A stretch of DNA of 64,000 nucleotides. Source: Anaerolineae bacterium. GTDB taxonomy: Bacteria > Chloroflexota > Anaerolineae > Aggregatilineales > Phototrophicaceae. The stretch covers positions 1 through 64,000 of the forward strand of contig JALHNB010000009.1 of assembly GCA_022843745.1 (NCBI GenBank), in the 5' to 3' direction. The notes beneath the pieces are model-generated. The model was not told the origin of the DNA and ran no database searches. It was given only the letters and a program-made list of their open reading frames with translations. Below, piece by piece: positions 10,942 through 13,238 of this stretch (within the stretch, counting starts at the first letter, position 1; the number at the start of each line of letters is the position of its first letter). The position numbers and the translations under genes were made by a program.

Positions 10942-11496
10942 ATGGGACTCAAACCTGACCATTGGATTCGCAAGATGTCGCTCGAACACGGCATGATCGA
11001 ACCATTTGTCGAGAAGCAGATGCGCGAAGGCGTTATCAGCTATGGTGTCAGCAGCTATGGCTATGATATGCGTGTCGCCGACGAATTTAAGATATTCACC
11101 AACATCAATTCTGCTATCGTAGACCCCAAAAACTTCACGCCGAGTTCTTTTGTCGATTTTAAGGGTGATGTCTGCATCATTCCGCCGAACTCGTTTGCGT
11201 TAGCGCGATCAATGGAATATTTCAGAATCCCCCGCAAAGCACTTACAGTATGTCTAGGTAAAAGCACTTATGCAAGATGTGGATTAATAGTAAATGTAAC
11301 GCCCTTCGAGCCGGAATGGGAAGGTTTTGTCACACTCGAAATCAGCAACACCACTCCCCTTCCCGCCAAAGTGTACGCTAACGAAGGCATTGCACAGGTG
11401 TTGTTTTTCGAAGCTGATGAGGAATGCGAGGTTTCCTACGCCGACAAGAAAGGCAAATATCAGGGGCAGACTGGCGTAACGCCGCCGCGTTTATAA
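10942..11496 (+). CDS. dcd: dCTP deaminase (dUTP-forming or bifunctional)
   Basis: A 184-residue trimeric deaminase that converts dCTP to dUTP (or directly to dUMP in bifunctional forms) for thymidylate supply. Characteristic motifs are SSYGYDMRV near residue 37, the FVDFKGD region, and the catalytic/active-site stretch [11 protein letters not shown] followed by [15 protein letters not shown], including the conserved Glu that activates water. RBS AGAGGGAAA precedes the ATG. It is separated from argS by 79 bases containing an inverted repeat. Length matches the family. Confidence 0.95.
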
Positions 11497-11558: not shown

Positions 11559-12243
11559 ATGAAGAAAGAACAGCGCGAAGAAGCCCGTCGCTTACGCCTT
11601 GAAGAAGGTTTATCCGTCAGAGAGATTTGTACAAAACTTGGAGTTTCAAAAGGCTCGGTAAGTGTTTGGGTTCGCGATATTGAACTCACAACTGAGCAGC
11701 GAACAGCACTCAAAAAGCGTAATCCCGTGTATGCGGGTCAGCATCTCGGCGCACAGGCTAATATCCTCAAACATCGCGAAATTCGCCGCCAGTATCAAGA
11801 GGAAGGCCGTCAGAAAGCCCGCGAAAATGATCCGCTTCACATCGCGGGCTGTATGTTGTATTGGGGTGAAGGCGCAAAAAGTAGGACTCAACTAGAGTTA
11901 GCAAACTCCGATCCAGTTTTAATACAGTTCTATCTCAATTTTCTGCGTGAGTCACTAAAAGTTGCTGACAATGATATTCGCGTAAGGGTAAACTGTTATT
12001 TGGGAAATGATTTAACATCAGAGGAAATCGAAAACTGGTGGCTAGAATTATTGGATTTACCACGCTCTGTATTGGAAAAAAACAATAATCAATACAAAAC
12101 AGAGACCAAGTAGTCAGCAGAGAGGCCGTAAGTTAAAATACGGCATGTGTTATATTCGAATATATAATACACAGCTTGTCCAGCATGTCTTCGGTGCAAT
12201 TCAGGAATATTCAGGGATTGATAAACCGGAGTGGTTGATGTAA
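11559..12243 (+). pseudogene. Frameshifted HTH plus LAGLIDADG-like protein
   Basis: The first 184 codons (11559-12113) encode an N-terminal helix-turn-helix (SVREICTKLGVSKGSVSVW) and a segment with the WGEGAKSR and LANSDPVLIQFYLNFLRE patterns seen in LAGLIDADG-like HTH proteins. The frame then stops at TAG 12111. In the +1 frame the conserved C-terminus continues: RGRKLKYGMCYIRIYNT, then QLVQHVFGAIQEYSG, then KPEWLM and stop at 12241-12243. Removing one A from the A7 run at 12076-12082 joins both parts in one reading frame of about 227 codons. Either the gene is broken, it slips at the poly-A tract, or the assembly has a one-base error. RBS AGAGAGGA precedes ATG 11559. Function unknown; a DNA-binding regulator or decayed homing-type nuclease is plausible. 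Confidence 0.75.
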
Positions 12244-12256
12244 ATTAGAAATATCC

Positions 12257-12332
12257 GGGCTGTTAGCTCAATTGGCAGAGCATCTTCTTTACACGGAGAG
12301 GGTTACAGGTTCGAGTCCTGTACCGCCCACCA
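12257..12332 (+). tRNA. tRNA-Val (anticodon TAC)
   Basis: The full cloverleaf can be drawn: acceptor GGGCTGT/ACCGCCC, D arm GCTC/GAGC, anticodon stem TCTTC/GGAGA with loop TTTACAC (anticodon TAC), T arm ACAGG-TTCGAGT-CCTGT, and an encoded CCA end. One acceptor pair is mismatched (T5 against C68). It reads GUA valine codons. A strong hairpin follows 12 bases downstream. Confidence 0.93.
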
Positions 12333-12530: not shown

Positions 12531-13238
12531 ATGGTGATGCTCCAAGACGGAAACCGACAAATACTGATCGTCGAAGATGATGAGGATACTGCCGAAATGG
12601 TTAGCTCGCTGCTGACGGAAGCGGGTTACAAATCTGTCTCTGTGGATACGGGCGAAACCGCACTTTCCGAGATCGCAGCGAAATCCCCTGATCTGGTTTT
12701 GCTTGATCTTGGCCTGCCAGATATTAACGGGCTGGAAGTGCTGCGACGAGTACGGGACACCTCGTTCCTGCCGATGATCGTTCTGAGTGGTTTTTCGCAG
12801 GAACGCGATAAAGTTCGCGTCCTGGAAGCCGGGGCAGATGATTTCATTGGCAAGCCCTTCGCGCCCGACGAACTTGTCGCCCGTATTGCCGCGCTGCTGC
12901 GTCGTGTGCAATGGACACCCCAGGCCGAAACGAAATTGGTTGTGCGTCAGCTTGAACTCGATATCCCCCATCGGCAGGCAGCAATTCGTGGTAAAAAGCT
13001 CCACTTGACCCCCGTAGAGTACGGCCTGCTCATTACGCTCATGCGCAGTGCAGGGCAGCTTGTCACCCATGATGAACTGCTTCGAACTGTATGGGGCGAA
13101 AAATACGCAGGCGATTATTCGGTCCTGCGCGTCAATATTTCACGTTTGCGCCAAAAGCTGGAAGAAAATCCACGCCGCCCCGCCTATATCGTCACCGTTC
13201 CAGGAGAAGGCTACCGGATGCCAACGGGCCGCCCCTAA
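12531..13238 (+). CDS. OmpR/PhoB-family response regulator
   Basis: A 235-residue two-domain regulator. The receiver domain (residues 10-125) has acidic pocket E15-D16-D17, phosphoacceptor Asp59 in LLDLGLP, and the conserved Lys in IGKPF. The C-terminal winged helix (about 140-233) shows LTPVEYGLLITLMRSAGQLVTHDELLRTVWG split over its helices and the R-x-x-I-x-T-V-x-G-x-G-Y-R wing. It should bind DNA when phosphorylated. No partner kinase is adjacent; kinases at 3.3 and 21.2 kb are candidates only by proximity. A second ATG six bases downstream is equally possible as the start. Confidence 0.95.
   Translation: MVMLQDGNRQILIVEDDEDTAEMVSSLLTEAGYKSVSVDTGETALSEIAAKSPDLVLLDLGLPDINGLEVLRRVRDTSFLPMIVLSGFSQERDKVRVLEAGADDFIGKPFAPDELVARIAALLRRVQWTPQAETKLVVRQLELDIPHRQAAIRGKKLHLTPVEYGLLITLMRSAGQLVTHDELLRTVWGEKYAGDYSVLRVNISRLRQKLEENPRRPAYIVTVPGEGYRMPTGRP

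Follow-up and report, generated by a model that had tools for sequence, protein, structure and literature searches.

A tRNA-linked family of HTH/LAGLIDADG-type proteins in Anaerolineae as candidate homing endonucleases, with a frameshifted member beside tRNA-Val

SegB belongs to the GIY-YIG class of nucleases. It is a free-standing endonuclease described in phages of the T4-like group, where it is significantly co-localised with tRNAs; it is thought to cut inside a tRNA-containing sequence and is without preference for tRNA isotype (PMC13096335). In WhiA, a conserved transcription factor, an HTH is joined to a LAGLIDADG domain that is without nuclease activity (PMC11701221). The locus considered here lies in a stretch of 64,000 nucleotides from an Anaerolineae bacterium (the whole of it referred to below as the window) and contains a gene broken by one surplus base, which belongs to a family of ~225-aa proteins built of an N-terminal HTH and a single-motif LAGLIDADG-type domain (Table 1). 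A literature search, limited in its reach, returned no description of such a family. The explanation that we prefer, with moderate confidence, is that the family represents a homodimeric free-standing homing endonuclease, recognising a particular tRNA gene and residing beside it, and that the window copy is one decaying by frameshift. The adjacent tRNA-Val, which the original prediction mentioned in passing, was found 13 bp downstream of the gene and proved the most informative part of it.

Table 1. Features of the frameshifted gene and its surroundings (positions in the window)
Feature	Position	Strand	Remarks
dcd (dCTP deaminase)	10942..11496	+	left flank of the insertion site
ORF, N-terminal part	11559..12113	+	184 aa, frame 0; ATG at 11559, TAG stop at 12111-12113; HTH (residues ~3-40), linker helix, LAGLIDADG-type helix and first strands (GCMLYWGEGAKS...NSDP)
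G + A7	12075..12082	+	place of the single surplus base; holds the in-frame heptamer A_AAA_AAC
C-terminal part	12082..12243	+	+1 frame, 53 aa (...SSQQRGRKLKYGMCYIRIYNTQLVQHVFGAIQEYSGIDKPEWLM, then stop); TAA stop at 12241-12243
tRNA-Val (TAC)	12257..12332	+	intact; conserved neighbour of the clade
Response regulator	12531..13238	+	right flank, syntenic in relatives; outside the element

The lesion was originally described as a frame stopping at 12113, an A7 run at 12076-12082 and a +1 frame continuing with a family-like C-terminus to 12243. These coordinates hold, and it is there that intact relatives match the downstream stretch. Relatives without the lesion follow frame 0 to ~12083 and then the frame of 12082 through the final TAA, and frame 0 and the +1 frame jointly make one protein of ~226 aa, which is intact in dozens of relatives. 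The 225-aa protein of one of them (L028) shows 60% identity over residues 1-174 and 71% over residues 172-225; the corresponding values for the first and second part are 56% and 77% in L031, and 61% and 64% in L007. The C-terminal part, which according to the domain model comprises the last strand and the last helix of the endonuclease-type domain, shows 58-77% identity to intact close relatives. The two halves are equally well conserved, which suggests that the frame change is recent or spurious. Alignment to full-length homologues, proposed together with the prediction, makes the two pieces one gene with one base too many; intact homologues (~206-248 aa) do not end at the first stop and run through the downstream segment. 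Removal of one A restores a single frame, as had been stated, and this frame agrees with that of intact relatives. Leaving out the G works equally well: whichever base of GAAAAAAA (12075-12082) is dropped, the resulting frame is identical, and the surplus base may lie anywhere among them. At this place the sequence of the family is ...CL-R-K-T-I-x-N, so the shift is located just before the T codon. The window also carries, at 12083-12106, one extra in-frame codon compared with all close relatives (N-TKQRP-SSQQ versus N-xxPx-SSQQ), which is unrelated to the frameshift. A single 4-base duplication that would account at once for the shifted frame and the added codon was considered and rejected, because the K-T-I-x-N motif is already in the shifted frame upstream of that codon.

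Three options had been offered for the frameshift, of which decay is best supported; programmed slippage and phase variation find no support in relatives, where A7 is absent near the site. Taken by itself, the frameshift is ordinary: it probably reflects simple decay of a gene copy, although an error of assembly is possible. Judged from the modelled loss of the last strand and the last helix, the truncated product would probably not function. Broken members, the window gene included, account for 7 of ~60 cellular copies, and all of them have different lesions, the other six being unrelated to that of the window. L029 (= L136) has an in-frame stop at codon 52, and L142 an in-frame TAA at approximately residue 180. 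In L035 (= L162) a deletion is combined with a frameshift, L163 lacks residues 95-149 without a change of frame, L171 shifts frame behind its HTH, and L039 does so in several places. A sequencing or assembly error, with a true run of A6 and a gene intact in the organism, appears rather unlikely. It is consistent with a lesion that is a single indel in a homopolymer, with the good conservation of the remaining family features, the C-terminal piece among them, and with a gene that has no second lesion; however, the family often decays, as the seven differently broken copies indicate, and no homopolymer frameshift emerged elsewhere from a coding-potential scan that covered 390 kb of this assembly, though the scan is insensitive and its HMM too insensitive for the AT-rich window gene. 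The scan, directed at frame changes without start codons, yielded two candidates, both lacking a homopolymer; of these, the one put to the test turned out to be two separate genes. This result mildly favours a sound assembly.

A full-length protein made from the split gene through programmed frameshifting by the ribosome, or through slippage of RNA polymerase on A7, is very improbable. The run could allow tRNA-Lys to slip by +1 (AAA to AAA) or transcripts with A6 to arise, and both products would be family-like, but relatives have neither a run of seven nor a split frame at this site: near it A7 was found in 0 of 50 intact cellular copies and an A run of six in 4 of 50, all of them being in one frame. 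The recognisable A_AAA_AAC, in the right register, is a classical -1 heptamer, whereas only a +1 (or -2) shift restores the family frame, and AAC, the codon in the A site, is a sense codon. A programmed -1 frameshift on this heptamer was rejected, as the -1 frame stops at once, meeting TAA two codons on. Conserved slippage and phase variation were likewise rejected for want of a run of seven in relatives. Conserved recoding is thus excluded for the family; private recoding at the window copy is possible but unsupported. Phase variation, that is, a run switching between A6 and A7 within the population, is the least credible of all the alternatives: only the homopolymer at the lesion points to it, while the A7 is short, the site in relatives holds no run, and the run itself is not unusual in the assembly, in 390 kb of which 24 A7 and 12 T7 runs were counted.

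The family was recognised by Pfam, NCBIfam and PHROGs through its N-terminal HTH alone; no curated LAGLIDADG model of Pfam, NCBIfam or PHROGs matched the domains of 14 members, which may be too distant for such models. A profile of the domain from 47 members, compared with PDB, matched a single family, I-DmoI (E=0.0013). In this alignment LYwaEGaK falls on LYVAEGDK of I-DmoI (113-120), with the invariant Glu and Lys on E117 and K120; in I-DmoI the former is one of the two metal-binding catalytic acids, and the latter affects cleavage. The motif Y-x-x-E-G-x-K is invariant, with the catalytic-type Glu and Lys present in all 47 members. The domain-only AlphaFold model, made with 14 sequences, has a pLDDT of 91.5 and a pTM of 0.85. 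When it was submitted to VIA-align, the top seven matches were all LAGLIDADG proteins (Z 6.2-7.8, every Z value for the domain being below 8, the level clear of noise). The best was the TliVMA intein endonuclease (Z 7.8, rmsd 2.7, 82 residues aligned), and the I-DmoI structures reached Z 6.4-6.8 (best Z 6.8, rmsd 3.0, 84 aligned), with an alignment to the second subdomain of I-DmoI, at 24% identity, lower in the list. The model may represent the core fold (alpha-beta-beta-alpha-beta-beta-alpha), but its first strand is very short and it has one extra helix. In Foldseek, OmpA-like and MotB folds took the first ranks, at E values above 0.01, whether the query was the whole protein or the domain, and VIA-align of the whole protein listed no LAGLIDADG entry. 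The OmpA-like and MotB folds were set aside, since VIA-align of the domain and the independent sequence profile both gave LAGLIDADG. It is the agreement of these two independent methods, and neither of them alone, that supports the predicted LAGLIDADG assignment, and the 'HTH/LAGLIDADG-like' label of the original prediction is borne out by the profile match to I-DmoI and by the structure matches. One motif per chain suggests that the protein would act as a dimer. A transposase or IS protein was rejected as an identity, as the matches to such proteins concern the HTH only, and PADLOC returned no match of substance to a defence system.

A same-strand tRNA gene lies within 205 bp in all 52 cellular copies with full context; five further copies are tandem second copies beside linked ones, and four are situated at contig edges. 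As a control, 6 of the 339 long ORFs in 390 kb of the own genome, family members included, are so close to a tRNA gene. The position relative to the partner varies: the family gene is found ~14-70 bp before tRNA-Val(TAC), ~1-40 bp before tRNA-Pro(TGG), ~50-200 bp after tRNA-Met(CAT), ~30 bp after tRNA-Gly(TCC), and between tRNA-Ala(CGC) and tRNA-Ala(GGC). The own genome has three copies: besides that of the window, which stands at tRNA-Val, there is one beside a tRNA-Met pair (C7) and another beside tRNA-Pro (C99). In the tree of 61 proteins the clades track tRNA identity (Val-TAC, Met-CAT, Pro-TGG, Gly-TCC and Ala), with six changes of partner label (minimum 5; shuffled mean 33); the Met and Pro copies form single groups, and the Val copies one group plus the outlier L142. 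We lean, if only slightly, towards regarding these proteins as an undescribed class of free-standing LAGLIDADG-type homing endonucleases of bacterial chromosomes, in which each clade would be tied to one of these tRNA genes as its homing site and changes of partner would be rare. The class would occur mainly in one Anaerolineae order, and also in Actinobacteria MAGs and large phage-labelled tRNA arrays.

Several arrangements at these loci deserve separate mention. Tandem second copies, partly identical to the first and at one tRNA site, occur in the Met clade (L144, L154, L024) and in the Pro clade (L027, L164), and a partial 5' duplication of the HTH part is seen in L140 and L036. On phage-labelled IMG/VR contigs (L124-L131, L043), most relatives reside in or near dense tRNA arrays of large contigs, as many as 22 tRNA genes lying within 4.7 kb in L127; the exceptions are L129, with no tRNA in view, and L130, with the nearest tRNA 1.3 kb away. 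A tblastn search of GenBank phages gave no relative.

The insertion site of the tRNA-Val clade is observed in both states. Several genera preserve the order argS-dcd-gene-tRNA-Val-response regulator, while seven relatives lack the gene and have 57-105 bp between dcd and tRNA-Val; the genus-level group g13 holds both the occupied and the empty state. Two other relatives have a different ORF in the gap between dcd and tRNA-Val; in L075 (2053-2800) and L084 (2053-2500) the gap ORF is apparently on the reverse strand and, by eye, RNase HI-like. Within the order presence is patchy, with a match in 34 of 154 genomes, a few of these being weak and confined to the HTH, and in a phylum-wide sample only HTH matches were found outside the own genome. 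The GC3 of the window gene is 0.395, compared with 0.53-0.56 in its neighbours, and the family gene changes approximately three times faster than dcd. Distances of the gene and of dcd within the tRNA-Val clade are only partly correlated (Mantel r 0.47, with 16 of 2000 permutations as high), and this correlation together with the old synteny suggests that inheritance is in good part vertical. The dcd gene itself shows a further peculiarity in some relatives: in L028 (230-1921) and L029 (205-1929) it carries an in-frame intein-like insert of ~380 aa (compare position 11278 of the window), which in L029 begins with C-FRGDTRVALVDG and ends with ...GVFVKN before C-GLIVN, and the dcd matches of G038, G043, G049 and G059 are split at the residue of this insert.

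The proposed homing cycle would begin with the putative enzyme cutting the same tRNA locus on DNA that lacks the gene, be it transformed, conjugated or phage DNA. Repair would then place a copy of the gene next to the tRNA. After fixation of the site, decay and loss of the gene could follow freely, and the copy at tRNA-Val in the window may be at this stage of decay, its one-base frameshift cutting off the final strand and helix that complete the endonuclease fold. Chief among the rival explanations is a WhiA-like domesticated DNA-binding regulator of tRNA transcription, of HTH plus LAGLIDADG-type composition, which would not cut DNA and of which the window copy would still be a pseudogene. 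We regard it as improbable, though worth serious consideration. The family has the same two domain types as WhiA and is linked to tRNA genes on the same strand, and the old argS-to-response-regulator synteny across several genera and the partly vertical inheritance keep a regulator in contention. However, the catalytic-type Glu and Lys do not vary in 47 members, the same site is often without the gene, about one in nine copies is broken, and the gene may stand upstream or downstream of tRNAs or between them, in tandem, and in phage-labelled tRNA arrays. Invariant catalytic-type residues, patchy presence and frequent breakage together favour an endonuclease over a regulator. Members of the family gave no match to WhiA models of Pfam or NCBIfam.

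It is the family, rather than the frameshift, that merits the attention of specialists. If the homing endonuclease explanation is true, then a selfish endonuclease lineage has stable addresses in the tRNA genes of ordinary bacterial chromosomes, and its sites, some intact, some empty and some decaying, offer a natural series in which the cycle of gain, decay and loss of a homing gene could be measured. The family would also be a source of small dimeric nucleases that carry HTH modules and have defined targets in tRNA genes. Should the proteins be regulators instead, they would constitute an unknown layer of tRNA gene control.

Among known systems, I-DmoI and the archaeal and intein LAGLIDADG enzymes share with the family the LAGLIDADG-type helix ending in E-G-x-K, a compact second strand and an N at the strand end. 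I-DmoI, however, has two LAGLIDADG motifs per chain and is intron-encoded, whereas the family has one motif and an N-terminal HTH, shows an additional helix (domain residues 74-84) ahead of the final strand, and is associated with no intron or intein. WhiA resembles it in combining an HTH and a LAGLIDADG-type domain in one bacterial protein; in the family, by contrast, the HTH is N-terminal, the catalytic-type residues are invariant, and the gene occurs patchily and next to tRNA genes. In function the nearest parallel is SegB, likewise a free-standing endonuclease whose gene is linked to tRNA genes, from which the family differs in being of another nuclease class, in its chromosomal location and in keeping one tRNA per clade.
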